From the NCBI RefSeq assembly GCF_001623075.1, contig NZ_LMCF01000013.1, positions 1-64,000 of the forward strand: a DNA stretch of 64,000 nt. Direction: 5' to 3'. Below are positions 1,086-16,433 of this stretch, in pieces (positions within the stretch are counted from its first letter, which is position 1; each line of letters opens with the position of its first letter). The notes below the pieces were generated by a model that was not told where the DNA came from, did no database searches, and saw nothing but the letters and a program-made list of their open reading frames with translations. Origin of the DNA: Pseudovibrio sp. Ad37 (GTDB lineage: Bacteria > Pseudomonadota > Alphaproteobacteria > Rhizobiales > Stappiaceae). Made by a program: the position numbers and the translations under genes.

Positions 1086-3200
1086 CTAAATCACATCCAG
1101 ATAGATCAGCCGCTTTGAACCCGTCGCCTTCTTCAGCACCTGAATACGCTTCTGCCTCAGCAGTGGCGCTGCCCGATCCACCGCACTGCCAAACGCATTC
1201 ACCTTTGTCGGCCAGAAACGTGAGGATCTGATCTGGTCACACACAATCATATTGAGTTCAGCCAGCAGCTCAGTTGCCGTGCCCACCCAACTCTCACCAC
1301 CTTGCCGAACCATGAGAAACTCATGAAGCGCCACAGCAACCGGATCACCTTCAAAGACGGCCTCTGCTGTACCACGCCGGTTGCTCTCATAAGCCTCCAG
1401 AAACTCACCCTCTTCCCAACCAAGGCCAGAAGACGCAGCCACCATCAACCGCGCAAAGTCCGCCATGCGTGGATGGCGCTCCAAACGCACACTCTCAATA
1501 CTGCGAATAGCTGCGCTCAACGCATCCAGCAATGCGCCAAGCATACGCGGTTTGAGCTGCTCCCATTCTTGCCAGAACAGCTCTTCCGGCTGACGGCCCA
1601 CCTCATCAATCCGCTTGAGACGAACAGAAAGCGCTCGCTCTGCCAGATCAGCCCGCTCAGTCAGCGCGGGAATGCCATTAAGCAGCACAGGCCGCGCCCC
1701 TTGAAACCAATAGGCATCTCCATCCGTGTGCAATTTGCGAGAAATAAACCCACTCCCCGTCGCCATCCGGCAAATTGCATCAGAGAGCCAGCCTTCCATT
1801 TTCGAGACATTATCGAAATTAAGCACATGCCCGTTTTGCGCCATCACCATAAGATCACGCTCATCTTTGGGAAGTGAAGACGCAGAAACCGCACAAGGAT
1901 CTGTAATCGACCGCAACAGCCGCGCCATAGTACTCTTGCCGCTGCCTTGCTCTCCTCCAAGCGCCAATACCGGATAGCTACGGCTACGCCCCCAAAGAGA
2001 CGCCACCATCCATCCAAGAATAAGCTTGCAGTCCTCTTCCTCCGCATTGATAATATGGTGCATCTCTTCAATGCCATATCCTTTTTCAGGCACGGGTAAC
2101 GGCGACATAGTCTGCTTGCGGATGAACTTGATGGCTGGATTTTGTACTACCCTCCAACCGTTGCGGTTGATACGGACCGCTCGCCAGTTCTCATCTGTCA
2201 GATCCAGCCAACTTTCCCCATCCTGCCAGCCAGTCCGCATAAACGGCACATGGCAGGCACCTTGCTCCAACGCCCGCACCTCAAACACGCGCAAGGCATC
2301 ACCTAGATTCTGCGTTGAAGGTGCAAGCCCGGTCTTCTCATAATACCGCCCCACCAACCAACGTTTGAAACTCTGGCTCTCAACCGACCAATGCTCATAG
2401 TGATCATTCACCAGCACAGTGGCAAAGGCATCTTTCTGCGGTGAGTGCCAAAGCTCCAGATCCTGCGCGACTGATAACAAACTCACACCACGCACACGTG
2501 GCTTAGCTTCTCGCTCTTCCGCATCCTTTGCCTGAGAAGACAATACGAAGGCCTCAGCTTGTTCTGACGTCCATCCATCTGCCAAAGCATCCGCCGCATC
2601 CCAGCCTTTGGCAACATCATCCGGTGGCACAAGAACCGATACAGTTGCAACCCCAACCTTCTCAAGGCAACCCGCAACATCATCAGCAAATTTCAGCCCA
2701 GCCTCATCCGCATCAGGCCAGATGGCGACCTCTCGCCCTTGAAGCACAGACCAATCCGCTTTCTTAGCTGCATTGGAGCCACTAGGTGAGCTGATACAAA
2801 CATGTCTCAATAACAATTGCTTGGCAGCATCTGCAGCCTTTTCTCCCTCAACAATGACAACAGGCATATCCGAAGTTTTGGCAAGTAGGTCTAAACCATA
2901 TAGAGGCCTTGGATGCGGCCACGTCTCCCACCGCCATTTCAATTGCCCTGCGACTTGGAACAAACACAAAGGGCGATAGCTCTTCCCCGCCTCGGCCTCA
3001 TCAAACCGGCACACATACCCAAGCACTTCACCCGCTGCATCGCGGTATGTCCAGCACTGTGAAGGAACCCCAAGCTTAGGATGAAAGGCATGTGGCTCCG
3101 GTGCCCCATCTGACACCGGCATTACAATCACCTTCTGAGGTTGTTCCCGCTTCGGCTTTGATGCTTGAGTTGGTTTAATTGGAGCAAACGGATTACTCAT
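1086..3200 (-). CDS. TOPRIM/helicase replication protein (phage or plasmid primase type)
   Basis: A likely DNA primase-helicase that replicates the element. With the start at 3200 it has 704 residues. An N-terminal Pro/Lys-rich stretch is followed by a TOPRIM domain with the acidic motifs EGEK (about 118-121) and PDADEAG (about 162-168), and then a P-loop ATPase domain with Walker A GEQGSGKST (about 416-424). ATG at 3200 is preferred over the upstream ATGs because it overlaps the stop of the preceding gene as ATGAGTAA, a normal arrangement for translational coupling. The zinc-ribbon that fused primases carry at the N-terminus is absent here and is supplied by the separate gene at 3193-3510. 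The TOPRIM plus ATPase architecture is clear; primase activity itself is inferred. Confidence 0.8.
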   Translation of the reverse strand: MSNPFAPIKPTQASKPKREQPQKVIVMPVSDGAPEPHAFHPKLGVPSQCWTYRDAAGEVLGYVCRFDEAEAGKSYRPLCLFQVAGQLKWRWETWPHPRPLYGLDLLAKTSDMPVVIVEGEKAADAAKQLLLRHVCISSPSGSNAAKKADWSVLQGREVAIWPDADEAGLKFADDVAGCLEKVGVATVSVLVPPDDVAKGWDAADALADGWTSEQAEAFVLSSQAKDAEEREAKPRVRGVSLLSVAQDLELWHSPQKDAFATVLVNDHYEHWSVESQSFKRWLVGRYYEKTGLAPSTQNLGDALRVFEVRALEQGACHVPFMRTGWQDGESWLDLTDENWRAVRINRNGWRVVQNPAIKFIRKQTMSPLPVPEKGYGIEEMHHIINAEEEDCKLILGWMVASLWGRSRSYPVLALGGEQGSGKSTMARLLRSITDPCAVSASSLPKDERDLMVMAQNGHVLNFDNVSKMEGWLSDAICRMATGSGFISRKLHTDGDAYWFQGARPVLLNGIPALTERADLAERALSVRLKRIDEVGRQPEELFWQEWEQLKPRMLGALLDALSAAIRSIESVRLERHPRMADFARLMVAASSGLGWEEGEFLEAYESNRRGTAEAVFEGDPVAVALHEFLMVRQGGESWVGTATELLAELNMIVCDQIRSSRFWPTKVNAFGSAVDRAAPLLRQKRIQVLKKATGSKRLIYLDVI

Positions 3201-3510
3201 AAGCATCCACACCAATCATGTCCGCCAGATTACAAGCAGCTTGTTTTTGCGAGAGCGAAAACAGATAGGCTCCAAGGCTGATAAAATCCCGCCCACCTTC
3301 ACCAGTGGCAAAATCACACCACAAGCCAGAAGCAACGTTGACTTTGAATGACCCGGCACGGCGATCCATCCGGCGCGGGTTCTTCACGGTATACTCGCAG
3401 CCACAAAGCCGCCCACCGGGGAGCCACTGCCTGCAGATCGTATCACCATGCAATAAAGCAGCTCTGGCGATTCGCTGGAAAGCAACGCGGGGATTGTGCC
3501 GCCGTCTCAT
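3193..3510 (-). CDS. Zinc-binding primase N-terminal-like protein
   Basis: A 105-residue protein with cysteines at 26, 36, 38 and 65 (C..GGRLCGCEY...LWCDFATGEGGRD), the layout of the small zinc-binding modules at the front of phage and plasmid primases (CHC2-like), where the W.DFA.GEGG.D segment is typical. It begins inside the stop of the AlpA-like gene (ATGA, 3507-3510) and ends inside the start of the TOPRIM/helicase gene, so the three are translationally coupled. It probably works with that protein as a two-piece primase. The zinc-binding role is inferred from the cysteines. Confidence 0.7.
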   Translation of the reverse strand: MRRRHNPRVAFQRIARAALLHGDTICRQWLPGGRLCGCEYTVKNPRRMDRRAGSFKVNVASGLWCDFATGEGGRDFISLGAYLFSLSQKQAACNLADMIGVDAYE

Positions 3511-3740
3511 GACCTCGCCCCCACTTCACTTGTGGAGCTTGTCAAATGAGATTCAATCCATACCTGTATGTCAGAAGGCCGATAGCGAACCGACTTGCCC
3601 AACTTCACATATTTAGGCCCGCCGCCGCGCACCCGCCACGCCTGTATGGTCCGTATAGAAATTCCAAGATAATCCGCCGCCGCCGCCTCTGTAATCAAGG
3701 CGTTCTCAACGCTGTTCAGTTCCGTCCTCATAACCATCAT
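3507..3740 (-). CDS. AlpA-like helix-turn-helix regulator/excisionase
   Basis: A 77-residue protein whose residues 15-65 form a MerR-like winged helix-turn-helix (EAAAADYLGISIRTIQAWR then GPKYVKLGKSVRYR.SDI..WI), the pattern of AlpA and the HTH_17 excisionase group. AlpA proteins of P4-type elements activate the integrase or act in excision. Here it is the first gene of the replication operon and overlaps the next gene by four bases (ATGA). Two in-frame ATGs exist at 3740 and 3737; either could be used. Confidence 0.85.
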   Translation of the reverse strand: MMVMRTELNSVENALITEAAAADYLGISIRTIQAWRVRGGGPKYVKLGKSVRYRPSDIQVWIESHLTSSTSEVGARS

Positions 3741-3792: not shown

Positions 3793-3820
3793 GTCAAAAG
3801 GGGATAAAACCATTTTACCC
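3793..3820 (-). terminator. Possible terminator behind the unknown gene at 3815
   Basis: On the minus strand a GGGTAAAA/TTTTATCCC hairpin (arms 3813-3820 and 3801-3809, one bulged base) is followed by CTTTTG. It overlaps the last codons of the gene at 3815-4627. The stem is A/T-rich and weak, so this is tentative. Confidence 0.4.
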
Positions 3821-4627
3821 ATCCCCATCAACAACCCTACGCCAAAGCTGAATCTTCTTCGTTTTTAGCCAGTTTCTGACTTGCTCTGCATCTGGGACAC
3901 TTGCACCTCGCATAACCTGAAAGCAGTCAAGGAACATGGAAACAAGTTGAGCGCCATTTTCTGGAAAGCCTTCTTGTCCAAGTTTGAGAACAAGAGCATC
4001 ATAGGCCTCGTCCCATAGATACTTTTTGGGACGCCCTGAGCTTGCCTGCTTTGGCAAGCATGCCTCATCTTTCAGTTTACTCGGATGGTAGATCTTCAAA
4101 CCTTCTGCGACCTGCACCCACTTACGCGTATTTGTGCGGCCTAAGGTACAACTCTCAATTCCAACCCGCGTATGGGTATAAGTCCAAAGCTCTGGGGGAA
4201 TGAGTGTCTCTTCAGCAATTGGCCTATCCCGACCTTTCGCAACCAGTTTGCCCGTAGCGAGTTGAGATATAAGCGTTTCATAGCGCCCGAACACTGCCAA
4301 AAAATATTCTCGAACCTCTGGAGAGGATGCCTTCCGCGCTTTTCGAACAACCCGTGTCTTCCCCCTCACACGAGTATATTTGGCTTTGATTTCCCGCGTT
4401 AAATCGAATGCCCATTTTCGAGGCTCCACAATGACTGGCCATCTTGGGTGCTTGTTAAAGGTCCAATACCGAATGATTGCTTCAGAACTTGGCCCAAAGC
4501 TTGGCGTTTCAGCTTGAACGGAATTGATAGCTTCCAAAACTTCAGGTGCTTGGCAAACAGTTCTCACAAACGCCTGTCTAAAAGACAAGTCGTGCAGCCC
4601 CAGAAGTTCCTGACACTCTTCATCCAT
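3815..4627 (-). CDS. Protein of unknown function (270 aa) in the integrated element
   Basis: I do not recognise a family. It is soluble and basic, with no signal or membrane segment. The middle carries a run of Lys/Arg (KAKYTRVRGKTRVVRKARK, about 81-99). The C-terminal third (GRPKKYLWDEAYDALVLKL to the end) reads like a small helical DNA-binding unit of the type at the end of some phage-borne regulators; the GRPKK string is AT-hook-like. The start at 4627 is supported by a GGAGAAGG sequence on the minus strand about seven bases upstream. It sits 45 bases behind the Mrr gene and ahead of the AlpA operon, so it could be a regulator at the junction of cargo and replication genes or a further defence component. 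That role is a guess. Confidence 0.75.
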   Translation of the reverse strand: MDEECQELLGLHDLSFRQAFVRTVCQAPEVLEAINSVQAETPSFGPSSEAIIRYWTFNKHPRWPVIVEPRKWAFDLTREIKAKYTRVRGKTRVVRKARKASSPEVREYFLAVFGRYETLISQLATGKLVAKGRDRPIAEETLIPPELWTYTHTRVGIESCTLGRTNTRKWVQVAEGLKIYHPSKLKDEACLPKQASSGRPKKYLWDEAYDALVLKLGQEGFPENGAQLVSMFLDCFQVMRGASVPDAEQVRNWLKTKKIQLWRRVVDGDG

Positions 4628-4672: not shown

Positions 4673-5596
4673 TCACAGCTCTTCAGCAAAGAAATCCTCA
4701 TCCATCCGCTGAATGGAAATGGTCCGGCTGGTACGTACGCCAACGCCATGCTCAACCATGAGCTTGGTTAGCGAAGCACCATCAATCAGGATGATCCGCT
4801 GAACCAGTCCTTCTGCATATTCTTGCGCTTGCTTGCTGAAGCTGGATGTTGTGACAAAAATCCCCTTGTTAGCACCCAGCCCAACAAGAGAACCCACAAA
4901 CCCCTGAACATCTGGACGACCTACCACGTTATCGGCTTTATAGCGTTTGGCTTGCAGATAAACACGATCAAGACCAAGGCGATCTTCATCGATCACCCCA
5001 TCAACACCGCCGTCACCAGATCGGCCAAGCTGGCGAGCGGCCCTTGCATGAGAACCGCCATACCCCATGGAAATCATCAGCTCGATGATTAGTCCCTCAA
5101 AAAAACTTGGAGAATTTTGCAGTATTCGTTCAAGAAGATCAGTACCAAGCGATGAGCGAAGCGTTGCATAGGCATTATCAATTTGCTCTTCTGGCGTAGC
5201 TGGATCGTCAGACAACGAAAGATCTACACCATTCTTAGTGGAACCAGTTTCTTTCCCACGAGCGCGAAAATCCTGAAACTTCTCGTAACGTGTCAAAAAC
5301 TCATTGCTAATGCGATCAGGCGAACTCTCAAGTACTTTTCGCCCCTCTTGCGTCGCCACAAAATACCCTCGGCTAGGGCTTTCCAACAAGCCTGCTTTGG
5401 AAAGGTAAGTCTTCGCCCAATGGATACGATTGTTTAAGCGTCGCGTTTGTCCACTTGGCAACAGTTCTTCAAGGTCTTCTGCGGTGAGCGAAAATTCAGC
5501 AGCAATCGGCATGACCAAATCAGTCACACGAACAGCCCCATTTTCAGCAAGTCGCAAAACAGGAAGCATCAGGGTTTGATAGTCGGGAATGGTCAT
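4673..5596 (-). CDS. mrr: Mrr-type restriction endonuclease (type IV-like)
   Basis: A 307-residue restriction endonuclease of the Mrr family, which usually cuts modified DNA. Residues 1-90 form the Mrr N-terminal winged-helix region (PVLRLAENG...LTAEDLEELLPSGQ...NRIHWAKTYL.KAGLL..P.RG). Residues 160-290 form the nuclease domain with D199 (GDGGVDG) and QAK at 215-217, the PD-(D/E)xK core. It is the last gene of the defence operon, six bases behind the HNH gene, so it is probably co-expressed with the type I system. In that context it could attack foreign methylated DNA that the type I enzyme would spare. The family call is firm; the substrate is not visible from sequence. Confidence 0.9.
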   Translation of the reverse strand: MTIPDYQTLMLPVLRLAENGAVRVTDLVMPIAAEFSLTAEDLEELLPSGQTRRLNNRIHWAKTYLSKAGLLESPSRGYFVATQEGRKVLESSPDRISNEFLTRYEKFQDFRARGKETGSTKNGVDLSLSDDPATPEEQIDNAYATLRSSLGTDLLERILQNSPSFFEGLIIELMISMGYGGSHARAARQLGRSGDGGVDGVIDEDRLGLDRVYLQAKRYKADNVVGRPDVQGFVGSLVGLGANKGIFVTTSSFSKQAQEYAEGLVQRIILIDGASLTKLMVEHGVGVRTSRTISIQRMDEDFFAEEL

Positions 5597-5602
5597 AGGA
5601 TA

Positions 5603-6418
5603 CTAGCCTAACAATGTCTGCAACCAAGGATGCTCAGTAACGCGTCGCTTTTTCAGATGGTTGTACATTTCACCGCTAAAATCAGAGCCAGGGGAAATCA
5701 TACGAAGAATTGGCTTCAAAGCATCTCTATATTTTTTTTGCCTCTTAGCGGAACCATCCAACTCATAGTATCGATCTTTCGCAGCTACAATTTTCTGATC
5801 TAAATCCCTAATTTGGCTCAGCCGCATTTTGTTCAAAGCATCTTGATGCAAATGATATAGCAAAATAGAAACGCTAACGCGCGCGCATTCGTTGGGGTCA
5901 TCAGTCGCCGCCACAGGGCTTCCAGACTCTACTGAGCATCCTAAAAGTTTCCATTCTCCTTCTTCACAAGGATCAAGGAGTAATGGTGCTTCATCATCAA
6001 TATCATCATCTTCGCAATATGCGCGTGAATCTTCGTCCTCAAGTGGAAAATGATCTGCCTTGCCGCCTTCGGTGCCCCCACTCCTATCTTTACGCTTACT
6101 ATTACAGAACGTGCAGATGTACCGGAAATTACTCAACTCAAACGCCAGCCATTTATAACCTGAGTGCTCCTCCAAAGCCTCAGCCACGCGGTTTTTGGGA
6201 CGAAAGTGATCAATTGCATTATCAGATCTAGCAGCAGGAGCTTCACAAATCCAACACCGTTTATCGGAAACAGCTGCGAAGGGATCTTTTAAGCACCTCC
6301 AGATTTCTGAGGAGCCGTCGGGCTTAGCACCATCTACCATGACACGCTGTTTTGCTCGCGCGGCTCGGTCTATCCAACCTTCTGGTAACTGAATTTTATC
6401 TTGATCAATCCACCGCAT
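5603..6418 (-). CDS. ptuB: HNH endonuclease, PtuB-like (Septu-type defence pair)
   Basis: A 271-residue HNH nuclease. The zinc/HNH core is visible as CWIC (about 55-58), AIDHFRPK (about 68-75) and CTFCNSKR (about 102-109), with a further ADHFPLED segment after it. It starts at ATG 6418, overlapping the ATPase stop by one base (TGATG); a GTG at 6421 is the alternative. The pair ATPase plus HNH protein, ATPase first, is the arrangement of the Septu anti-phage system (PtuA/PtuB), in which the ATPase is thought to control DNA cleavage by the HNH subunit. Related ATPase/HNH pairs occur in some retrons, but no reverse transcriptase is nearby. The assignment rests on domain types and order. Confidence 0.8.
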   Translation of the reverse strand: MRWIDQDKIQLPEGWIDRAARAKQRVMVDGAKPDGSSEIWRCLKDPFAAVSDKRCWICEAPAARSDNAIDHFRPKNRVAEALEEHSGYKWLAFELSNFRYICTFCNSKRKDRSGGTEGGKADHFPLEDEDSRAYCEDDDIDDEAPLLLDPCEEGEWKLLGCSVESGSPVAATDDPNECARVSVSILLYHLHQDALNKMRLSQIRDLDQKIVAAKDRYYELDGSAKRQKKYRDALKPILRMISPGSDFSGEMYNHLKKRRVTEHPWLQTLLG

Positions 6419-8124
6419 CACTCGTTATCCTCATCACCCTGAGCCAACAAGTCTGCAATAACATCACTCGCAATCGCCTCGCGCTCCTCTCGGGATAAGC
6501 GAGACACCCCTTCAGCAACATCTGTGCGCTCTTGTTCTTTGAAACGCTGCTGGAGAGCACTACTACGCAGGCGCAAGTAACGTGAATATTCGTCGTCTGG
6601 ATGAAAGAACCTAAAACCTAGGCGGTCCAGATCCTTGTTGATTTTGGTGAGCCGCTCAGCATCGTCTAAAGAAAGTTTGTCCTTACTGCCCAACTCACGT
6701 TGTTCTTCAAGTAAATCCTGAGTGTCTTGATCGAGTGTAGATGCAATCCCAAACATCTCACTCGTCACAATCGACGCATACCCCATCCCCTTAGGGCTCT
6801 CTTCTGGGTAGCTTGCAACAACACGCCTATGCTTCTCACTTTCATCAACGCTTAGGATCTGGACCTGTTCGCGCTCAAGTTCAGCAATCGCCATAGGATT
6901 ATGTGTAGTGAGAACAATATGGCTGGTGTCTTCTTGCTCATCATCGGTACTTGCAATGAACTTTTGGATGTAATTGAGATAATCAACACTCCACCTTGGA
7001 TTGAGGTGAGTATCAGGTTCATCTAGCAAGAACAGGCTTTCTTCCCCTGCGGTGAAACGCATAAGGCCCAATACTGTGAGAAGCTGCCGCTCTCCCTCGC
7101 TTAACTCGCTAAACGTAACCGGCGTCTTGTTCTTCTTTACACGTACATTGATGCGAACATCTTCAATCAGCTGTGAAACATGTGTGCTTTCAAGATCGCG
7201 GAAGAACTCGGCTGGCTCTTGCTCGCCAACAAGCTCCTTCAGGGCACCAAGGTCCTTTACGAGGAGATATTTAAACTCGAGAGATTTTTTGTTTCCCCAC
7301 TGAGAGACGACTTCGGTTCGCTTGATATCGACAGGGCAAATGGCGATGTCCATCAGTCGGTTAAGGAACCCCTGCACAACACCTTTCGCATTCCAGAAAC
7401 GCTCATCCCCCTCTTTCGAAGTCCATGGAGGTTGGCGCAAAACAAACAGGACTGAGTCGAGCCCGCTTTCCGGTTCCAAGCTCAATTGCTTTTCCAGAAA
7501 CTCACTCACAACGTCGCTCTGACCAATCAAAAAGGCCAGCAGAACAAATTGACTGTGCTCAGGCAGGGCAAAAAATAAGCGCTTGAGGCCAGGATCGTCT
7601 CCGGCACGCAGTTTCTTGTCGTATTTCGTCAGATATGGCGTGTAGACGTTTTGCAGACGATCACTTTCACCTGAGTAATAGCTAAAAACGAAACGTGGAA
7701 GGTTATCTGGATCTTTGAGAAACGCTGGTAACCTCAGAGCGGCTCCGTTCTCATCCGCAAAAAGATCGTCCAGTATACCGGGTACCGCATTTTCACTGTA
7801 AGAAACCCGAGCTTTCAGCTGTTCAGACTTGCGGTCTGGATCATTTTCCAGAAACACTTTTCGAGCTCTTTCGCCCTTCCCGATCTCATAGGAAAGTTCG
7901 AAGGCAAAGTCGATCTGGGGTTTGTTCGTCTTGCTTGGGCTAATCAGCTCTCGAAATATAATCGATAGTGCTTCGAGTACGTTGGATTTACCGGTGCCGT
8001 TCCAGCCGATGACAACAGTAACCCAATGCTTCTCATCAAAATCAATGCTAATATCTTTTAGGTTTTTATAGGAGTGCGCCGGACTATCCTTCGCACTCCC
8101 AATCTTAAATTTATCTAGCCGCAT
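6418..8124 (-). CDS. ptuA: ABC-type AAA ATPase, PtuA-like (Septu-type defence pair)
   Basis: A 568-residue SMC/ABC-like ATPase. Walker A is GWNGTGKS (40-47), the ABC signature LSEGE is at 341-345, Walker B LFLLDEP at 364-370, and a switch histidine in TTHNP at 406-410. The stretch between Walker A and signature is about 290 residues, typical of PtuA/OLD-like ATPases. No TOPRIM nuclease domain is evident after the ATPase, which separates it from OLD nucleases. It lies seven bases behind hsdS and overlaps the HNH gene. Together they look like a Septu module embedded in the type I restriction operon; an ATPase helper of the restriction system is the alternative. Confidence 0.82.
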   Translation of the reverse strand: MRLDKFKIGSAKDSPAHSYKNLKDISIDFDEKHWVTVVIGWNGTGKSNVLEALSIIFRELISPSKTNKPQIDFAFELSYEIGKGERARKVFLENDPDRKSEQLKARVSYSENAVPGILDDLFADENGAALRLPAFLKDPDNLPRFVFSYYSGESDRLQNVYTPYLTKYDKKLRAGDDPGLKRLFFALPEHSQFVLLAFLIGQSDVVSEFLEKQLSLEPESGLDSVLFVLRQPPWTSKEGDERFWNAKGVVQGFLNRLMDIAICPVDIKRTEVVSQWGNKKSLEFKYLLVKDLGALKELVGEQEPAEFFRDLESTHVSQLIEDVRINVRVKKNKTPVTFSELSEGERQLLTVLGLMRFTAGEESLFLLDEPDTHLNPRWSVDYLNYIQKFIASTDDEQEDTSHIVLTTHNPMAIAELEREQVQILSVDESEKHRRVVASYPEESPKGMGYASIVTSEMFGIASTLDQDTQDLLEEQRELGSKDKLSLDDAERLTKINKDLDRLGFRFFHPDDEYSRYLRLRSSALQQRFKEQERTDVAEGVSRLSREEREAIASDVIADLLAQGDEDNE

Positions 8125-8130
8125 AAAATC

Positions 8131-9669
8131 CTATGCCACGAATCTAACCATATCTGTTTGCTTGATATCATCTTTATTCCGAACGGCTTTGATTTCAATT
8201 TTATTTTGTCTTTCAAGATCCAACAACTGTTGGTAGATAAGCTCTATCTCTCCCGTGCTCGTTCCATCTTTGACCCCACAAAGCTGGAACAACCGCTGAG
8301 ATTCAAGCCATTCATCTGCCTCTTTCAGGGCGTCGAGAACTGTTTTTGCCATTTTGGAAATCTCTGTTTTCTTGCGAGAAACTTTTTTACGTACCACCTT
8401 CGGCTGTGCTGCCCGTTCTGCTTTGATGCGCTCTAAGAGCACGGAGGCAGGTTCGTCATTAGGATCTTGCTGCACCAACTCACCGCGAAACGCTTTGGCG
8501 AGGATTTTTTCATCTAACCTGTCCACGAGATGCAGTGCGCGCTCGGCTTCCACTGCCAGTCGGTCGATATTGCCAAATGCCACCTCAATACGGGTGACAA
8601 TTTCTTTTTGTTCTGGGATAGAAGGGATTGAAAACGAAAACTCTCTAAGCTTCTTTGCGTTGATATTCGACTGGCTAACGCCATCTGACTTTACTCTCCA
8701 ACTATAAGCTCGCCCTTCCGGACTATTCAGAGCATAGGTCAGATATTCAGGTAGCAATTTTTCACTACAACGAACCTTTATTAAGTATCCGGCGTATATT
8801 GCTTCACGCTCACCTTTAAAAAGAGCAGTCTTACCAACCAATTCAGGACTGTTTGTTCTATTGAAGAGCACGTCTCCTTTGTGGAGGCGGTACTTAGCCA
8901 CTTCATTGTCAGAGGTCGCATAAACGAGGCTATCCCATACTAATTTTCCATCTTGTATATTACCCATCCGTAGAACAGGGACAGAGCCTTCTTTTGCTGA
9001 TTTTGAGGAAGAGCCATAGGAAAAACTATCGGCAAAATCCAAGAGCTGTGCTGAGTCTGGCCATTTAGCGTTTTTCCGCCAATCAGCCGTCAGTTCCCCG
9101 CTGAATGCCTTTTTGAGGATGGCCTGTTTGTAGCGTTTGGTGAGGGTGTCGATGCGGGCAAGGCTCTCCCGCGCTATACGAGATTTTGCCGTCAGGCTCT
9201 CGATCTTCGCCACAATCCGCTTCTGCTCAGGAAGCGGTGGAAGATTGAGCGGAAACCCTGAAATGGACTTAAAACTAACCCTAGGCCTATCCCCAGTACT
9301 TACACGGTTGCAGTATTCAAGAAACTCAGAGCTAAATAACTGATTTCGTGTAAAAGTTAGTTCACTAGCTCCGTTTTCTCGCATCACGATAAATTCAGCA
9401 GAGGCAGTGCCATCAAAATTCGCAATAAATATCTTTCGCAAGTATGGTCGAAGCCGACCAAACAAAAGATCTCCGCGATTGAAAGTTATTACGCTACTCT
9501 TTAGTTGACCTGTATCAGCTACGTTGATTACTCGGCCGGTTTGAGCTTCGACGTCATCCATGCCGAGGAAAGGCATTGTATCTGAATTTTGCGGATTGAG
9601 CTTTACCTTAGATTCGCTAACTATTTCGCCTAAAGTCGTTCCAATCCACCCTTCAGGAAGCCCACTCAT
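8131..9669 (-). CDS. hsdS: Type I restriction-modification specificity subunit HsdS
   Basis: A 512-residue specificity subunit that reads the target sequence for the methylase and nuclease. Two target-recognition domains are visible, each followed by the conserved helical spacer: LPPLPEQKRIVAKIESL (about 150-166) and IPSIPEQKEIVTRIEVAF (about 346-363), with AFSGELTADWR and AFRGELV at the ends of the repeats. The start overlaps hsdM by four bases (ATGA, 9666-9669). A C-terminal extension of about 120 residues beyond the second repeat (RAAQPKVVRKKVSRKKTE and on) is longer than in classical HsdS and may be a protein-contact domain. Confidence 0.95.
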   Translation of the reverse strand: MSGLPEGWIGTTLGEIVSESKVKLNPQNSDTMPFLGMDDVEAQTGRVINVADTGQLKSSVITFNRGDLLFGRLRPYLRKIFIANFDGTASAEFIVMRENGASELTFTRNQLFSSEFLEYCNRVSTGDRPRVSFKSISGFPLNLPPLPEQKRIVAKIESLTAKSRIARESLARIDTLTKRYKQAILKKAFSGELTADWRKNAKWPDSAQLLDFADSFSYGSSSKSAKEGSVPVLRMGNIQDGKLVWDSLVYATSDNEVAKYRLHKGDVLFNRTNSPELVGKTALFKGEREAIYAGYLIKVRCSEKLLPEYLTYALNSPEGRAYSWRVKSDGVSQSNINAKKLREFSFSIPSIPEQKEIVTRIEVAFGNIDRLAVEAERALHLVDRLDEKILAKAFRGELVQQDPNDEPASVLLERIKAERAAQPKVVRKKVSRKKTEISKMAKTVLDALKEADEWLESQRLFQLCGVKDGTSTGEIELIYQQLLDLERQNKIEIKAVRNKDDIKQTDMVRFVA

Positions 9670-11309
9670 AGCTCTGCCCCCACAGCGTCAGCGCCGTCTT
9701 CCAACTCAGCGGAGAGTGCTTCAATCTCGCTCATAGCAGCGGTCAAATGCCCAAGGATAGCAGCAGCGATGTCTTCCGGCTCACTCAGGCCTTCTTCCTG
9801 TTCTTCCTCATCATCCTGAAGCCATTTAATATCCAGATTATCACCACGCGCTGCAATTGCATCACGAGTGAAACAACGGAAACGACCTTCCTCGCCTTCA
9901 TCCGTACGCTTTGTTCCGCCATTCGCATCAGCTCCATAAGCTTTCACAAACTCGGCAAAATGGTCTTCAGTCAACGGGCTAGTTTTGCCAAACTGGGGCA
10001 TCTGGCTGCGCAGGTCATAAACCCAGAGCTTCTGCGTCTCATCAGTTTTCAGGCTGGCAAGCTCAACCGCTGCGCTCTTTTGCAAGAAGATCACATTGGT
10101 CTTCACCCCTTGGGCATAAAATATACCCGTTGGCAGACGCAGGATGGTGTGCACGTTACATTCCCGCATCATCTTTTGGCGCAGGGCTTTGCCTTTGCCA
10201 TCTTCAAACAGCACATTATCAGGAATAACGATGGCCGCACGACCACCGGGCTTTAAGCCTCTGATGCAGTGTTCCACAAACGGTAGCTGATAACTGGAAA
10301 CATTGGCCGTCTCGGAAAGATCGTCCCGTGTCGGTTTGCCCCCAGCAGGACCAAACGGCGGATTGGTGAGGATCACATCCACCTTCTTCTTACACATAGC
10401 CTCTCCGTCAGGAGAAAGCGTATCACCTGCCAGAATATGGCCGGTATCAAAGTCATGCAGATAAAGGTTCATGAGCAAAAGGCGATAGGTATCTCGCACG
10501 TTTTCCATACCATGGAAGGCCTGCTCCTTTTGAAACTTCGCGCCCTCTTCACCCAGATCAAAATAGTTATCTGAACGGGCTTTCATATAGCGGTCAGCAG
10601 CAATCAAAAATCCGCCTGTGCCCGTTGCTGGATCTTGAATGCGCTCGCCCGGCTGAGGCTGCATTAGATTTACAATCACATCAATCAGCACACGTGGCGT
10701 AAAATACTGGCCCGCTCCTTTTTTGGTCTCTTCTGCGTTCTTCTGTAGGAGCCCTTCATACAGATCGCCAAACTGGTCACGCTCAATATCATGCCAGTCA
10801 ACCTTGTCGATCTCGGCTACCAATTTGTCGAGATTGACCGGGTCACGTAAGAAGGTGGCAGAATTCTCGAAAATGTCCTGCACCATCCTCGGAATTCTTT
10901 TGGCTGCCTTGTAGGCCTTTACTGCTTCCTCGTGAGCTTCTTTAATAGCCTTTACTTTTTCTTCGCCTAAAGCTTCCTCTTGTTCTTTGCTGATTGCAAC
11001 TTCTACAGGTTTACGTAGGAGCACATCCTCATCACCAAGGCGAAACGAGGTTGTGCTAAGTGCGGTAAGCAAATCGCGATAAAGGTCCAGCCGATCCAGA
11101 TTATCCGCCTTCACCAGATCCCTCCAGCGCATCCCCGTCGGTATCGCACCCACCTCCTTTGAAATCCCATTCTCGTTCCTCTTTTCCTCCATCATTTTGA
11201 GAAAAAGAAGATAGGTCAGCTCCGTCACATATTGCTGATAGGTGATGCCGTCTTTGCGCAGAACGGAACACAAGCGCCAGAGCTTCTGGACGATACTATT
11301 GGTATTCAT
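9666..11309 (-). CDS. hsdM: Type I restriction-modification DNA methyltransferase HsdM
   Basis: A 547-residue adenine-N6 methyltransferase that protects host DNA with HsdS. The HsdM N-terminal helical domain (KLWRLCSVLRKDGITYQQYV) is followed by GAGQYFTPR, the AdoMet-binding DPATGTGGFL and the catalytic NPPF (in VILTNPPFGPAGG). The length and all key motifs are intact. It lies 49 bases behind hsdR and overlaps hsdS. A charged stretch at about 125-150 (EEALGEEKVKAIKEAHEEAVK) is an insertion that looks like a coiled coil. Confidence 0.96.
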   Translation of the reverse strand: MNTNSIVQKLWRLCSVLRKDGITYQQYVTELTYLLFLKMMEEKRNENGISKEVGAIPTGMRWRDLVKADNLDRLDLYRDLLTALSTTSFRLGDEDVLLRKPVEVAISKEQEEALGEEKVKAIKEAHEEAVKAYKAAKRIPRMVQDIFENSATFLRDPVNLDKLVAEIDKVDWHDIERDQFGDLYEGLLQKNAEETKKGAGQYFTPRVLIDVIVNLMQPQPGERIQDPATGTGGFLIAADRYMKARSDNYFDLGEEGAKFQKEQAFHGMENVRDTYRLLLMNLYLHDFDTGHILAGDTLSPDGEAMCKKKVDVILTNPPFGPAGGKPTRDDLSETANVSSYQLPFVEHCIRGLKPGGRAAIVIPDNVLFEDGKGKALRQKMMRECNVHTILRLPTGIFYAQGVKTNVIFLQKSAAVELASLKTDETQKLWVYDLRSQMPQFGKTSPLTEDHFAEFVKAYGADANGGTKRTDEGEEGRFRCFTRDAIAARGDNLDIKWLQDDEEEQEEGLSEPEDIAAAILGHLTAAMSEIEALSAELEDGADAVGAEL

Positions 11310-11358
11310 AGGTTATGGCTTCCAGTTGGAGCGTATTTTATTTTGCTATGCAGATTGA

Positions 11359-14300
11359 TTATGCAGCTGAAGAAGTCCAGATAGCCTCGTTGATTTCCTG
11401 CAAGACATCACCAAGTTTCCCGTCAAACTCTTTCGAGATACGTTTAAACCCGCCTTTATCCTGAAACACTCCCTGATTCAGCAAGGATGGGTCAGCAACA
11501 GGCTTATCTTTCAGCGCTCGGCCAATACGGCGCAACCACTGAATTTGGTTAGATTTCCAATCTCGCGAGCCAATAATCTTCTCAATGGCGTTTTCCACCC
11601 GCGTTGCATACGGCACCAACGGATCACCCAGCGCAGCTTGTCGCACATAACCGATGATATGAGCCGCAATATCAGCATTGCGAGCACGGCCATAAGCAGC
11701 CCTGAGCATAGCCTCAGAAAAATGCGCTTCATCCAATTGAGCTGCTAGGTCTGTCAGTTCCTTGCGGGTGAGATTGCGCGGCTTTTGCGTGACAGCTACC
11801 ATCGCTGGAATACTATTCATATTCTCACGCACATAGGTCTCAAAGCTCTCGATATAGCTTTCCGGTGTGGCGTTGTCTCCAAACACTTCACGAATATGAA
11901 GCAGCTGATCTTCATGATAAGAAATCGCCACACCATTCTTCAGCGGGTCTTTCTTCACCGGAGCACGAACGAGGTTTTCCAATGCACGAGGATGCTTGTT
12001 CAGCCAGTCTTTCACCTCCGCGCCTGATTTGCGCGATAGACTATTAATGACAGAATCAGCCTCACCACCCATAGCGCTATCCAGCGCCTCTCGCCCTGCT
12101 TCATCCGTACGTTTTGCAAGTCCCCGCATTTTTACTACAACTTGCCCGGCAACCCAGTCCTGCTCCTCCGCATTAGGTGCGCGATCAAGATCAGCAATAA
12201 GCTCAGCCAGAGGGATGCTCGGCTTTACAACAACCGGACGCATATCGCTCATTTGCTGTAGTTCAGCATAAAGATCCACCGCGTCAAAAATGCGGAAGTT
12301 CTGCTTGCCAATCTCGGGGCAAAGGCGTGTGGCACGGCCAATCATCTGATCATACAAAATGCGGCTTTTCACCCGGCGCACAAACACCAGATTGGCAAGT
12401 ACAGGGATATCAACGCCAGTGGTGAGAAGATCAACCGTGACGACATATTTAGGCAACGGATCATTGCGGAATTTCTTGATAAGTCCTTTTGCATCGCGCA
12501 CAGAGCCGGTGATTTTCATCACCATATCATTGTGAAGGTCGCCGTACTCTTCGCGTAATTCTTCCTTCAACAACCGCACAATGTCATCGGCATGAGTATC
12601 CGTTGCGGCAAATATCAGTGTTTTACCCGGTGCATCAGGAGCAATTTCATTAGCGACAGTCTGGCAGACAATGCGGTTGAAATTCTCTGAATAAACGCGG
12701 CGGTTGAATTTGGCGAGCTCGTATTCCAACTCAACTTCATCAGGCAGATTGTGAAGTGTGACTTCGCCTGTGTGGCGATCAACGATCTCGACCTCTTCGC
12801 CACCGTTGAACGTAATGCCAGCTTCTGCAAGTGCGGTGGTGATGCGTTTTGGTGGTAGATGATCAATTAGGAAGCCCTCAACCACAGCCTGGCGATAACC
12901 ATAGGAATACGATGGTTTTTCACAGTCAAATATCTGTAGTGTGTGCAACGCTGGTGTTGCAGTCAGGCCAATTTTCACCGCATCAAAATAACTGAGTACA
13001 TTGCGATAAGCGGATTCATAGGCAGACACGTCACGATAAACTTCCTCGCCCTCTCGCAGATCTGCATCCAGCGTGTAGCCTCTGTGTGCTTCATCAATAA
13101 CAATGCAATCATACATACCCGGTGTGAGGCGTTCTTTGGGATCTTCTGTATTGTTAATGCGTGCCACAAGGGATTGTACTGTCGCAACGTGTATTTGCGT
13201 TGCATCATCGGGCAGTTTCTGATCAAGCCCAGCCACATTGTAAATCTGGGAGAATTTGTAAAAGCCCTCAAACTCGGTTGTATTGAGAGCATCAGTTGCC
13301 TGATCTCCCAAGGCGGTGCGATCAACAAGAAAAAGAACACGGTTGAAACGCTTGGTTTTCAGCAGGCGGTACATAAGAGCGATACAAGTTCGCGTTTTGC
13401 CAGTACCCGTTGCCATTGCAACCAACACAGAGCGTTTCCCAGCTGAGATTTCTTTCTCAACCGCATCAATGGCTTCTTCTTGGTAAGGGCGCAGGCTGGT
13501 CTGCCCAAAAGCCTCTTCAGCAAGCGCATTATTGGCCTGCTCGGTATCCTGCTTTAACTTACCGGCTAAATCTTTGGGTGAAAACCAGCTAGGCAAAACA
13601 CTCGCATGATTGGTGTGCAAACGAACGTCTCTAAACCAGATACCAGATTTGGTTTTAAACTGTCGGACGAATGGGCGACCATTACTAGCAAAGATGAAGG
13701 GCACTCGGTAAGGTTCATCAAGCCCATGTTGCCAAGGCGCATCTAGGAGCATTTGCTTGACATCAAGCTTAATCTTGTGCGCGTATTCATCAGCCTGTTG
13801 CAACACGCTTGGAACATCTGCAGATTGCCGTTTTGCCTCAATGACCCCAACGCATTCAAGACCAACGAACAAGGCATAATCAACACGACCACCCTCAGTT
13901 GGCCACTCAGAGATTGCCTGATTCCGCCCTTTCTCAGGTTGAGCACCAGATGAATAGCGAAGAGTAGAGGTATCAGCTTCCCAGCCAGCATCCTGCAACT
14001 GACGATCAATCAACTTACGCGTATCGTTCTCGTTTAGCTTAAGCTTTGCAGCTGCGTTCTGTCCAAGCGTCTTCAGCTTTTGCAACTGTTGCTCGGTTTG
14101 CTCTTCTGCTTGTGCTTGAAGCTTTGCAACGGCCTTTTCTAGCTCAGCATTTTGCTTTTCAAGGTCACTAAGAGAACTTACCGCTCTCTCAGCCTCCTGA
14201 CGAACCTGATCAAGCTCTGCAGCTCTTTCCTCTTCATTCTTCGCCAATTCTTTTAGGCGACCCTCGAACACTTTCGATTGTTCTATATAGTCTGAAATCT

Positions 14301-14751
14301 CTGCAGCAAGCTCGACAGAAACAACCTTTGGAGCCTTGGGCACGATGAATGGCGGCGGCTCGTAATTTGCTTCAGGCCCATAGCTACGCTGATACCAGAC
14401 ACCTAACACCATACAGAATTTAAGCGAAGTGAGCGCTTGGCCAGATGTTCCCACAATACCATGGGCTGCATCGTTCCCCGGCTTTCGAACAGCATGAAAA
14501 AGATCTGCAACTTGCTTGGGCAGAATCCCATCACGGCTTAATCGGTTAAGGAGCGCAAAAGCGGTTTCTTTGTCTTCTGATCGATAAGCAGCCGCACGTG
14601 CAGCTACATCCTTGACCATAAATTCGGTAAACTGTCGTGTTTTGATAAGGCATGTATTTGCATCCAGAGCAAACACCTGCTCTGCAACCATGCCAAGGCG
14701 GCAAAGATCAGAGTTGAGGGTTTTTAGGTGAAGAAAGTTTGATTGTGACAT
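11359..14751 (-). CDS. hsdR: Type I restriction-modification restriction/translocase subunit HsdR
   Basis: The motor and nuclease subunit of the type I system, about 1130 residues. The first 150 residues form a helical N-terminal domain (DUF4145-like), followed by a coiled coil (about 160-235), the HsdR nuclease domain with D at about 291 and EAK at about 305-307 (VDYALFVG...GVIEAK), and the superfamily-2 helicase with Walker A MATGTGKT (about 445-452) and IDEAH. ATG 14751 is preferred over 14754 or 14781 by comparison with the family start (MSQSNFLHL); no strong ribosome-binding sequence is visible. It heads the defence operon hsdR-hsdM-hsdS-ptuA-ptuB-mrr. Confidence 0.95.
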   Translation of the reverse strand: MSQSNFLHLKTLNSDLCRLGMVAEQVFALDANTCLIKTRQFTEFMVKDVAARAAAYRSEDKETAFALLNRLSRDGILPKQVADLFHAVRKPGNDAAHGIVGTSGQALTSLKFCMVLGVWYQRSYGPEANYEPPPFIVPKAPKVVSVELAAEISDYIEQSKVFEGRLKELAKNEEERAAELDQVRQEAERAVSSLSDLEKQNAELEKAVAKLQAQAEEQTEQQLQKLKTLGQNAAAKLKLNENDTRKLIDRQLQDAGWEADTSTLRYSSGAQPEKGRNQAISEWPTEGGRVDYALFVGLECVGVIEAKRQSADVPSVLQQADEYAHKIKLDVKQMLLDAPWQHGLDEPYRVPFIFASNGRPFVRQFKTKSGIWFRDVRLHTNHASVLPSWFSPKDLAGKLKQDTEQANNALAEEAFGQTSLRPYQEEAIDAVEKEISAGKRSVLVAMATGTGKTRTCIALMYRLLKTKRFNRVLFLVDRTALGDQATDALNTTEFEGFYKFSQIYNVAGLDQKLPDDATQIHVATVQSLVARINNTEDPKERLTPGMYDCIVIDEAHRGYTLDADLREGEEVYRDVSAYESAYRNVLSYFDAVKIGLTATPALHTLQIFDCEKPSYSYGYRQAVVEGFLIDHLPPKRITTALAEAGITFNGGEEVEIVDRHTGEVTLHNLPDEVELEYELAKFNRRVYSENFNRIVCQTVANEIAPDAPGKTLIFAATDTHADDIVRLLKEELREEYGDLHNDMVMKITGSVRDAKGLIKKFRNDPLPKYVVTVDLLTTGVDIPVLANLVFVRRVKSRILYDQMIGRATRLCPEIGKQNFRIFDAVDLYAELQQMSDMRPVVVKPSIPLAELIADLDRAPNAEEQDWVAGQVVVKMRGLAKRTDEAGREALDSAMGGEADSVINSLSRKSGAEVKDWLNKHPRALENLVRAPVKKDPLKNGVAISYHEDQLLHIREVFGDNATPESYIESFETYVRENMNSIPAMVAVTQKPRNLTRKELTDLAAQLDEAHFSEAMLRAAYGRARNADIAAHIIGYVRQAALGDPLVPYATRVENAIEKIIGSRDWKSNQIQWLRRIGRALKDKPVADPSLLNQGVFQDKGGFKRISKEFDGKLGDVLQEINEAIWTSSAA

Positions 14752-14847: not shown

Positions 14848-16095
14848 TCACTGTCCCCTCAACCCCGCCTCAATCCGCTCCCCAACCGTTTCTGAGAGCA
14901 CTCGGATAGGGTGCGCATCGTGGTTCACATAGCGGTTGGTGATGGTCACGTTGCGGTGGCGTAAAAGGTGACTGATGAGGAAAGCGTTGCTACCTGATTG
15001 CGCGGCGAAGGTGCCAACCGTATGGCGCAGGTCATGAATGCGGACATCTGGAATGTCTGCATGATGGCGAACGCGCTGCCATGCATTCTCCACCAGCTCC
15101 TTGGTAATGTGCCGTGTTGGGTCGTTGATGCGGGCAAGCACATAGGGGGAGCCGTCCAAGCGCGGTATATCGGAAAGGATGTCCAGCACATTCCCGCTGA
15201 CCGGATGCGGTTTGCGGCCATCCCCTTTCTTCGAAGGTAAAGCAATTGCCCCCTCGTCAAAGTCCACATGCTTCCATTCAAGAGAAGCGATCTCCATCAG
15301 CCGCGCACCTGTATAAAGCAGCAGCTTGAGGCAGAAGAGCGCCATCGGGTTAACTGGTGTTCGCCGCTTCTCGATATCGTTGCGCAGATGCTTTGTGTGT
15401 TCCGGTTTCGCCTTGATGATCCATGGGAGCCCTTCTTTCTCTGCAAGCTCCAGCGTCTTACCCAAGCGCTGTAACTCCTCACCAGATAGAAACCGGTCGC
15501 GCTCATTTTCCTTATAGCGTTTGATCAACCTCACAGGATTACTGTGCTCAGGTCTCAGCCCCCACACTTCAGCCAGATTGAACGCCTTGGAGATGATCGC
15601 TAGCACATGGTTTGCTTGTCGCGGAGTTCTGCGCATGGAGCGATGTAGCTTCGAGATATCCTGCCGTGTGACAGAGGCTAGCTTCGCTTTGCCTAAAGGC
15701 TTCCTCACACAACGTTCAAGAATACGCCGTATCTCAACAAGCGACTTTGGTTTGTTATGCACCTCAACATGTTCGCTCAAATACATATCAAGCAAATCAT
15801 CAACTGTTGGTGCATTACGAATGATCTTGCGATTAACGGTTGGGTCTTCCCCATTACGCACCTTGGCCAGAATATCGACGGCCAGCCCCCTCGCCTGATC
15901 CGGTGTCAGCTCACCGTATTTGCCGAGGGTCATCCGGCGAGAGCGCCCTTCTAGTGTGCGATATTGAACAATGAAGGTTTTGCGCCCGGTTGGCATCACC
16001 TGCAGCCCAAACCCCGAGAGCTTACCATCCCAGACGAAGTACTTCTTCGCCGTTGGCTTGGCTGCATCGACCGTCCGTTTTGTGACATTGGGCAT
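14848..16095 (-). CDS. int: P4-type tyrosine integrase
   Basis: A 415-residue site-specific recombinase. Residues 1-90 are the DUF4102 arm-binding domain (LTKRTVDAAKP-like start, DGKLSGFGLQVMPTGRKTF), 95-190 the core-binding SAM-like domain, and the catalytic domain carries the full set R265 (GARLMEI), H354 and R357 (HDLRHT), H380 (LLRH) and Y389 (NRYVNH). All are present, so the enzyme is probably active. It reads away from the right edge of the element, as expected when the attachment site lies just upstream of the start. Confidence 0.95.
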   Translation of the reverse strand: MPNVTKRTVDAAKPTAKKYFVWDGKLSGFGLQVMPTGRKTFIVQYRTLEGRSRRMTLGKYGELTPDQARGLAVDILAKVRNGEDPTVNRKIIRNAPTVDDLLDMYLSEHVEVHNKPKSLVEIRRILERCVRKPLGKAKLASVTRQDISKLHRSMRRTPRQANHVLAIISKAFNLAEVWGLRPEHSNPVRLIKRYKENERDRFLSGEELQRLGKTLELAEKEGLPWIIKAKPEHTKHLRNDIEKRRTPVNPMALFCLKLLLYTGARLMEIASLEWKHVDFDEGAIALPSKKGDGRKPHPVSGNVLDILSDIPRLDGSPYVLARINDPTRHITKELVENAWQRVRHHADIPDVRIHDLRHTVGTFAAQSGSNAFLISHLLRHRNVTITNRYVNHDAHPIRVLSETVGERIEAGLRGQ

Positions 16096-16433
16096 CAGAC
16101 AAAACTCTCCCGCTGACGGCCCATGACAAGAACCACCACACGTGCGAAAATAAAAGTTAAAATTAGTCCCCGAATGCTGCTGTTTCTGACGGCCTGACAG
16201 CTTGTGACAACCTTTTGGGCTTCTCTAATGACCGTGTGCAAAACACGGCCTCATCCCCTTATAGATCGCTTGCGCTATGCCTACCGTTTCTTGTCAGCAT
16301 ATTGTAAGCAAATGTACGAGTTTCGCAGCGAAATGCAAGGTAGGCAGAGGCAAATAATTTTCTACAACTCATTGATTCATAGTACTGAATCGTAGTAGAG
16401 TGCAAGTGGACGTGAGTTGCAAATTGCAACTTC
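16096..16433. other. Right-end intergenic region; likely holds the attachment site and an operator
   Basis: No gene recognised in 338 bases. Present are a CCGTGT/ACACGG hairpin (about 16230-16246), a GATTCA/TGAATC inverted repeat with six-base spacer (16374-16391), and an AGTTGCAA/TTGCAACT perfect inverted repeat with a one-base centre (16415-16431) directly at the point where recognisable MFS coding sequence begins. The integrase attachment site should be here. I see no tRNA or tRNA 3-prime end. Confidence 0.45.

Follow-up and report, generated by a model that had tools for sequence, protein, structure and literature searches.

Within a stretch of 64,000 nucleotides from Pseudovibrio sp. Ad37 (positions 1 to 64,000 of contig NZ_LMCF01000013.1, hereafter the window), six genes, hsdR-hsdM-hsdS-ptuA-ptuB-mrr, bring together a type I restriction-modification (RM) system, an ATPase-nuclease pair of the Septu type (PtuA and PtuB, together PtuAB) and an Mrr-type nuclease. 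Why should a Septu pair lie inside a type I operon? The reading that we favour, with a probability of roughly 0.63, is that of one composite defence machine, in which PtuAB would be docked through a C-terminal tail of HsdS on the type I methyltransferase, and in which that methyltransferase would gate PtuAB; the physical docking, the control of PtuAB by HsdM-HsdS (HsdMS), the trigger and the target, whether DNA or tRNA, are parts of it that we infer. The first-pass annotation of this DNA had spoken of three defence systems fused into one operon, a description that gives way here to a conserved unit of hsdS (with its tail), ptuA and ptuB plus hsdM, with hsdS-ptuA-ptuB as the fixed core, HsdR being absent from 27 of 92 loci and Mrr optional. 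The genes of the operon are as follows.

11359..14751, minus strand: hsdR, type I restriction subunit (ATG start, 1130 amino acids (aa); Pfam, NCBIfam, motifs)
9666..11309, minus strand: hsdM, N6-adenine methyltransferase subunit (N6_Mtase; GTGGF and NPPF motifs)
8131..9669, minus strand: hsdS, whole gene (Methylase_S)
8389..9669, minus strand: hsdS body (two Methylase_S stretches, PF01420)
8131..8388, minus strand: hsdS C-terminal tail, the proposed PtuA dock (last 85 residues and stop)
6418..8124, minus strand: ptuA, Septu ATP-binding cassette (ABC)-type ATPase (PADLOC PDLC00302, 810 bits)
5603..6421, minus strand: ptuB, Septu HNH-type nuclease (GTG start; PADLOC PDLC00330, 289 bits)
4673..5596, minus strand: mrr, Mrr-type restriction endonuclease, optional accessory (Mrr_cat and Mrr_N)

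Relatives were retrieved with PtuA alone as the query and comprise a genome set (the best 80 of 421), a plasmid set (the best 5 of 21 records) and a viral set (12 loci); by window-type PtuA is meant the PtuA family of the window's ptuA, distant PtuA-like ATPases being excluded. In the genome set hsdS adjoins ptuA in all 77 loci with upstream DNA, the sequence of the other 3 of the 80 ending within 300 bases upstream of ptuA, so that a free-standing two-gene Septu pair is not what these assessable closest loci present. An HsdS with the tail lies directly upstream of ptuA in 76 of the 80; in L053 ptuA is fragmented, its start lying behind hsdS. ptuB follows ptuA in all 79 genome loci with room for it, and hsdS-ptuA-ptuB is found in 5 of 5 plasmid loci. 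Among the viral loci HsdS is directly upstream in 8 of 12, the remaining 4 being distant PtuA relatives without HsdS there; a single HsdM query of the viral contigs gave no match. Genomes of the same family supply three loci, of which the close L003 (the same as L066) has a tailed HsdS and the distant L004 and L005 do not show the tail.

With inserted genes ignored, and as counted before one locus (L081) was relabelled as HsdR-bearing, the orders in 85 loci (R, M and S for the hsd genes, A and B for ptuA and ptuB) are R-M-S-A-B in 16 and R-S-A-B-M in 32 and, without hsdR, M-S-A-B in 18 and S-A-B-M in 8, the other 11 being unassigned. The nearest relatives of the window locus are those of Rhizobium alvei (L013) and Methylobacterium terricola (L012). 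The first matches the window in all six genes and in their order, at 49-73% protein identity (HsdR 60%, HsdM 63%, HsdS 49%, PtuA 73%, PtuB 67%, Mrr 58%), and the second has M-S-A-B only, which is also the arrangement in P. denitrificans of the same genus (L066), without hsdR and without mrr. The six-gene order, which the first-pass annotation had proposed to seek in other genomes, does therefore recur, and its counter-case, that hsdRMS would rarely stand beside ptuAB elsewhere, is the opposite of what is found for window-type PtuA. Accidental grouping is rejected, since hsdS-ptuA recurs; the arrangement is more than chance, given this adjacency in nearly all relatives of window-type PtuA together with the six-gene order in R. 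alvei.

The HsdS proteins encoded beside ptuA are mostly of 500-650 residues and have in common a C-terminal stretch of about 70-85 residues, the tail. No Pfam family is matched at E < 0.001 by the 39 members scanned; weak winged-helix family matches of a few individual sequences from the tail alignment (best E 0.0014) faintly hint at a winged-helix nature. As the PADLOC specificity model PDLC03127 runs through the tail of the window HsdS, this ending is already captured in profiles, though not named. A tail profile trained mostly on HsdS beside ptuA recognised 82 of 85 tails when whole clusters were held out, and matched none of the truncated decoys.

Does the tail occur apart from PtuA? In a sample of 398 Pseudomonadota genomes, with a tail threshold of E <= 1e-5 and limited candidates scored per genome, Methylase_S is present in 203 and the tail in three (G000, which is the window's genome, G110 and G376). 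A PtuA-profile match at E <= 1e-10 is found in 18, of which only three reach E < 1e-180; these are the same three genomes, and in them ptuA adjoins the tail, its frame being broken in G376. Ten of the other 15 were read: five have an HsdS in the same gene run without the tail (L108-L111, L116) and five, Septu-like pairs included, have no HsdS match (L112-L115, L117). Because these weaker PtuA relatives show no tail or no HsdS, the HsdS link belongs to window-type PtuA and is no rule for all PtuA-like ATPases. Among 274 genomes of the class of Shewanella insulae (G475, locus L081) a strong tail is seen in S. insulae only; full-length window-type PtuA occurs there and in G606, which begins at a contig edge and in which the 50 residues upstream of ptuA resemble, by eye, the tail of L095, the profile giving no report.

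In 5426 complete Escherichia coli genomes a DNA query made of the hsdS end, ptuA and most of ptuB matches ten; a tail query matches nine, all within the same ten and in no other of the 5426, and in the tenth (MB06233) the tail, too divergent for the DNA search, is found by profile. Four of the four E. coli loci read have HsdM-HsdS(tail)-PtuA-PtuB, and neither annotation nor profile shows an hsdR in the four stretches fetched. These units occupy two chromosomal sites, near dinD/yicG or near ygbA/hyp, which makes tests in laboratory strains feasible. On plasmids the L007 tail as query matches itself and the L009 record; that of L030 gives no match and is an insensitive query, since five plasmid loci hold hsdS-ptuA. 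A clear tail without ptuA was seen in none of the samples searched. Triads of HsdS, ATPase and HNH protein also exist with more distant ATPases (L108, L109, L110, L111, L099), where by eye the HsdS of L108 has a different end of its own, L110 and L099 share another and L109 has none; ATPase-nuclease pairs set in type I operons may, more generally, come with an HsdS tail of their own.

Fundamental to the favoured reading is the co-evolution of the tail with PtuA, measured as the Spearman correlation of pairwise distances over 72 non-redundant loci with 199 permutations. The 85 loci from which these derive exclude L097-L099, ptuA frames under 480 aa and HsdS frames of 400 aa or less; those with PtuA within 10% of a kept locus were then removed. 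The tail correlates with PtuA at 0.85, with its own HsdS body at 0.48 and with HsdM at 0.33, while PtuA correlates with the HsdS body and with PtuB at 0.47 each and with HsdM at 0.37; the HsdS body follows HsdM at 0.62, and HsdM follows HsdR at 0.90 (35 loci). A partial correlation of 0.79 is retained between PtuA and the tail when the HsdS body, HsdM and PtuB are controlled for, and that between HsdM and the tail is 0.02 when PtuA is. In 70% subsamples the PtuA-tail value stays within 0.81-0.88, above tail-body by 0.30-0.45. Along HsdS, 85-residue sections correlate with PtuA at 0.85, 0.72, 0.48 and 0.12 when placed 0, 40, 80 and 120 residues from the C-terminus, and at 0.14-0.36 deeper than that; the tail-PtuA correlation is about that of most PtuA segments with the rest of PtuA.

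PtuA can itself be split at about residue 440 into a core (residue 1 to about 440) and a C-terminal part (the rest), which was done for 64 loci, 8 of the 72 having been removed for lack of the split motif or for a short end, and one of those kept being mis-split (499 residues). The core tracks the tail at 0.86, PtuB at 0.45 and its own C-terminal part at 0.30; the C-terminal part tracks PtuB at 0.59 and the tail at 0.25. Three modules seem to exchange partners, namely HsdR, HsdM and the HsdS body; the HsdS tail and the PtuA core; and the PtuA C-terminal part and PtuB, the last being the least sharply drawn. The pattern is such as two protein interfaces would leave, and block inheritance of neighbouring DNA could contribute to it. 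Of the functional coupling that the first-pass annotation had suggested, that of the type I system with the Septu pair is well supported by the adjacency, the HsdS tail seen with window-type PtuA and the co-evolution of tail and PtuA; Mrr is an interchangeable accessory. As a separate observation, PtuB can be swapped while PtuA remains similar: of the 670 locus pairs whose PtuA proteins share 55% identity or more, 234 have PtuB proteins that share 32% or less, for instance L028 against the window, L006 and others.

HsdR comes and goes around this core. Of the 92 loci, 49 have an HsdR match within 10.5 kilobases and 27 have none, 16 being cut short; some of the calls of presence are fragments (235 aa in L018, 121 aa in L042 and 293 aa at a contig edge in L029). 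When the 27 records without HsdR are searched whole, HSDR_N (E <= 0.01) is found in 15 and the HsdR profile (E <= 1e-15) matches in 7, and no HsdR is detected by either profile in 11, which are eight genomes, two plasmids and one viral fragment (L008, L010, L012, L025, L026, L066, L073, L074, L077, L080 and L095). The HsdR matches elsewhere in the other HsdR-less genomes may belong to other systems. On the PtuA tree HsdR presence needs at least 16 changes, with L081 relabelled for the tree only, its HsdR probably lying, by coordinates, just beyond the fetched flank; L015 may be similar. An HsdR hidden in the big neighbours of HsdR-less loci was considered and rejected, the six frames scanned being a superfamily 1 (SF1)-type helicase (L025), Fic (L026), DNA polymerase III alpha (L034), a ParB_N protein (L077), IF-2 (L046) and one of no family (L072). 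A 510-aa frame in L021 also matches no family.

The methyltransferase, for its part, is kept. The NPPF-type motif is present in 25 of 25 HsdR-less HsdM examined and in 58 of 58 others; a pattern for the S-adenosylmethionine motif failed in 4 HsdR-less and 10 other HsdM and is probably too narrow. Among seven close HsdR-less pairs, 4 have an HsdS body whose identity falls 0.23-0.30 below that of HsdM (0.59 versus 0.89 in the pair L072-L070), a comparison made in HsdR-less pairs alone, without HsdR-bearing control pairs. Because the NPPF motif is kept and the HsdS body changes faster than HsdM in those 4 pairs, we favour the view that methylation-based recognition would continue without HsdR.

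How might such a machine work? The HsdM-HsdS methyltransferase would mark host DNA and read specific sites; the C-terminal tail of HsdS would bind the PtuA core, docking the Septu effector on the type I complex; and the C-terminal part of PtuA would hold the HNH nuclease PtuB. When unmodified target sites on incoming DNA are met, PtuA would most likely be switched and PtuB would cut, its substrate being either phage DNA or host tRNA, as reported for an E. coli Septu and for retron Eco7. By analogy with published systems, control over PtuAB would fall to HsdMS and its tail. In the window genome HsdR would add classical type I cleavage and Mrr an accessory nuclease, both of them optional, and relatives without HsdR would depend on PtuAB. 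Recognition of unmodified DNA is favoured as the trigger, ahead of its main rival, release by inhibitors, because the methyltransferase motif and the diversity of recognition persist where HsdR is missing. A bolder version, which we hold tentatively and at somewhat less than even odds, is that HsdM-HsdS-PtuA-PtuB would be a self-sufficient, modification-gated system, its methyltransferase telling self from non-self by methylation and a tail-docked Septu ATPase-nuclease taking the place of HsdR. The window would then be a dual-effector form with HsdR kept or re-acquired and Mrr added, and PtuA a two-faced adaptor, core to tail and C-terminal end to PtuB, for effector swaps among type I backbones.

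If true, a dedicated HsdS tail would be a concrete sensor for the window-type branch of Septu, whose published pairs reportedly differ in sensing or cutting (phage single-stranded-DNA-binding protein (SSB), nicked DNA, tRNA-Tyr), and a type I methyltransferase that lacks HsdR could form a complete defence system by using a different effector. These loci would be entered twice wherever type I RM and Septu are scored separately in per-genome defence tallies. In the openly accessible literature, outside which most subscription papers and preprints fall, no description was found of the HsdS tail or of PtuAB in the place of HsdR.

Several points weigh against the composite machine. All gene pairs compared correlate beyond the 199 permutations, so that the argument is one of relative strength; the PtuA core also tracks PtuB (0.45), which leaves the preference of the C-terminal part for PtuB (0.59) modest; and, the tail being encoded beside ptuA, part of the correlation could stem from block inheritance. 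The ends of three of the 85 HsdS next to ptuA (L011, L095, L096) were missed by the held-out profiles. Tail counts that are not anchored on PtuA are small, at 3 of 398 genomes and one strong match in 274, with limited candidates scored per genome; divergent tails, including any without ptuA, escape the DNA and tblastn tail queries. Three weak tail matches (L103, L104, L105; E 2e-6 to 9e-5) sit in frames of 850, 775 and 101 aa without PtuA or HsdM nearby, possibly members of a wider domain family. An HsdR type distant from both profiles could have escaped detection. Finally, Septu is listed in a review table (PMC12904381, as far as its available text goes) as sensing phage SSB and cleaving DNA, and PtuAB may carry an SSB-type sensor of its own.

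The alternative that survives best, credible though rather unlikely, is a guard of the PrrC kind: HsdMS, with or without HsdR, would only mask PtuAB via the tail, phage anti-restriction proteins that act on the Hsd complex, by binding or inhibition, would free PtuAB, host tRNA would be cut and the infection aborted. It shares the docking step with the composite machine; its trigger is not unmodified DNA. The precedent is PrrC, whose gene lies within a type I locus and which becomes active once Stp of phage T4 inhibits the enzyme (accessible portions of PMC12707154 and PMC2610378). The PrrC170 system is listed, in the part of PMC11555353 available, as HsdR, HsdS, PrrC, HsdM, the slot of PrrC being that of PtuAB in the 32 R-S-A-B-M loci. 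According to that same part, PtuAB of retron Eco7 is toxic, is neutralised by reverse transcriptase (RT) with msr-msd and depletes tRNA-Tyr, and an excerpt of PMC13096335 has E. coli Septu cleaving tRNA-Tyr; the effectors of retrons Ec78 and Ec83 are among the solved relatives of PtuA and PtuB. A pure mask, however, would need neither the NPPF-type motif that is found in all 25 HsdR-less HsdM nor an HsdS body that outpaces HsdM, as it does in 4 of the 7 close pairs lacking HsdR. The targets of PtuAB also differ, that of retron Eco4 likely not being tRNA and the Septu of ATCC 25922 being reported, in the text available, to act on nicked DNA.

That independent systems share a promoter, type I loci being an insertion hotspot in which Septu and Mrr are embedded and PtuAB senses phage by itself, we consider improbable. 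Accessory genes do vary among operons, which fits mrr; detection of phage SSB and cleavage of DNA are listed for Septu (PMC12904381, in the portion available); and 5 of the 10 weaker Septu-like ATPase relatives read are without HsdS. The tailed HsdS ahead of window-type PtuA and the co-evolution specific to tail and PtuA would nonetheless be left unexplained. Improbable in turn is an artefact of linkage, in which a functionally unrelated tail travels with ptuA through recombination breakpoints in conserved regions of hsdS. Module borders inside genes (between hsdS body and tail, and at about residue 440 of PtuA) are what block exchange would give. Also in its favour, identity in HsdM drops to 42% or less in 242 of the 670 locus pairs whose PtuA proteins share at least 55%, and identity in PtuA does so in 3 of the 555 pairs whose HsdM proteins share at least 60%. 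Yet the N-terminus of PtuB, although equally adjacent, gives an r of 0.46 only, which speaks, not conclusively, against linkage alone, and simple deletions of ptuA should leave clear tails without it, such as went unseen in the samples searched. That the tail is a DNA-binding autoregulator through which HsdS controls ptuAB at the level of expression only is very improbable: the weak winged-helix matches in a few single tail members (best E 0.0014) would suit it, but it predicts co-evolution with regulatory DNA and not with the PtuA protein (only proteins being compared here).

The composite machine may be set beside systems already described. With Septu the likeness is in the best PADLOC models for both proteins, an ABC ATPase and then an HNH nuclease, and the difference is that window-type PtuA is tied to HsdS; the available text of the PADLOC paper treats Septu type I and type II (with RT) and Hma as frequently co-occurring with type I, and the HsdS link is absent from that account. 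An excerpt of PMC13096335 states that the Septu of a clinical E. coli strain depends on the Walker residues of PtuA and the H-N-H residues of PtuB. Among proteins of solved structure, the relatives of PtuA and PtuB include the retron Ec78 and Ec83 effectors and the PtuA-PtuB entry 8ee4/8ee7 (partial matches). Retron Eco7 (Ec78), of type I-A, is thus among the nearest solved sequences and likewise has PtuAB with a partner module, but its partner is RT and msr-msd, whereas here the proposed partner is HsdMS; no RT was found by Pfam among the 15 distinct window proteins, msr-msd not having been searched. PtuAB of Eco7 is not neutralised by RT alone (PMC11555353, available part).

PrrC/EcoprrI and PrrC170 are alike in that an ATPase-domain nuclease gene is embedded in a type I locus, but PrrC is a single protein and the window has an ATPase-HNH pair. 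PrrC/RloC anticodon-nuclease models are not among the matches listed, at most 25 per list, for PtuA and PtuB, the best of which are Septu models, and PrrC loci are covered indirectly by the tail count in the 398 genomes, where all three tails come with PtuA. Type I RM loci with an embedded DarTG2 or AAA/RNA-binding pair (the RptR island) also have defence genes between hsd genes, with no HsdS tail in such published description as is available. TIGR04435, "restriction system-associated AAA family ATPase", is the NCBI name for distant plasmid relatives of window PtuA, which itself scores 133 bits, below the cut-off of 300. MADS, a system of eight genes, resembles the window in having a methylase, an S subunit and an AAA ATPase, but the window matches fall far under the cut-offs (MAD2 117/720, MAD3 35/420 and MAD5 29/400 bits). 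OLD-type ABC ATPases coupled with various endonucleases are cited in the accessible text of PMC12839542.

Mrr is one of several interchangeable accessory genes and not part of the core. A match is present in 14 loci including the window, lying behind ptuB, hsdM or ptuA or ahead of hsdR, and mrr, found in 11 of the 85 rows of the PtuA tree, needs 11 changes there; on these scattered positions and changes Mrr as an essential member is rejected. Only the Mrr of L013, L044, L045, L052, L058 and L059 align with that of the window over near-whole length (42-58% identity). Other genes inside related operons encode Fic, YhcG/DUF1016, Schlafen AlbA_2, 8xMP, DUF4357, DUF5655, DUF559 and PIN proteins, and an annotated Abi protein.

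As to the window operon itself, the six open reading frames, all on the minus strand and free of internal stops, are intact and tightly packed as first described, with spacings from hsdR to mrr of 49, -4, 6, -4 and 6 bases. Of the two overlaps reported earlier, 9666-9669 stands and 6418-6420 becomes 6418-6421 with the GTG start of ptuB, for which an ATG at 6418, just after, is the alternative; hsdR has a second in-frame start option, a TTG at 14781 upstream of its ATG. The gene identities and motifs proposed at first are supported by Pfam, PADLOC, NCBIfam and a motif check. HsdR is laid out as a DUF4145 N-terminus, HSDR_N, a superfamily 2 (SF2) motor and EcoEI_R_C, scores 1438 bits against NF008521 (cut-off 729) and has the motifs GTGKT, DEAH and EAKR; with the NPPF of HsdM, the target-recognition domains of HsdS and the nuclease and SF2 motor of HsdR, the sequence features of a type I RM system are present. 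On the Septu side PtuA has Walker A, signature and Walker B, and the adjoining ptuB encodes an HNH-type protein with DHFRPK and CxxC, which matches no Pfam family. Mrr has GDGGVDG and QAK, in keeping with D-QxK. A single operon transcript is suggested by the gene packing alone, since neither promoter-like sites (8 versus 12.5 expected from shuffles) nor terminator-like sites (12 versus 11.7) are above the shuffled expectation.

The operon probably travels as cargo on an integrative island, as it has an integrase upstream and, downstream on the same strand, the 270-aa, HTH_17 and Toprim/DUF6371-like genes given below.

14848..16095, minus strand: tyrosine integrase of the operon-bearing island, directly upstream of hsdR (Pfam)
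3815..4627, minus strand: 270-aa gene, probable island gene, starting 45 bases past mrr on the same strand
3507-3740, minus strand: HTH_17 gene, probable island backbone (Pfam)
3193-3510, minus strand: 105-aa gene, probable island backbone (position)
1086-3215, minus strand: Toprim/DUF6371-like gene, probable island backbone (both Pfam matches below curated cut-offs)

The 270-aa gene has no match in Pfam, PADLOC or NCBIfam and could be a seventh member of the operon or island backbone. In the region 16080-17384 of the window, the integrase end of the island is at about 16432, within a major facilitator superfamily (MFS) transporter gene that is intact in the relatives L124 and L125. The 5' half of this gene is on contig C133 of the window's genome (1-2397; L131, L129), where at about C133:1195 it meets a stretch with 94% identity to the DNA next to a related integrase in G006 (L128); by eye, that stretch is a tRNA 3' end with CCA, and the gene beyond it encodes what we take to be a HIT protein. 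The split of the MFS gene likely reflects integration at a secondary site or an att-mediated rearrangement, though it may be an assembly error. Related islands may be numerous in this genome, since further related integrase sequences, some of them partial, lie on contigs C141, C214, C215, C125 and C109 at 72-95% DNA identity.

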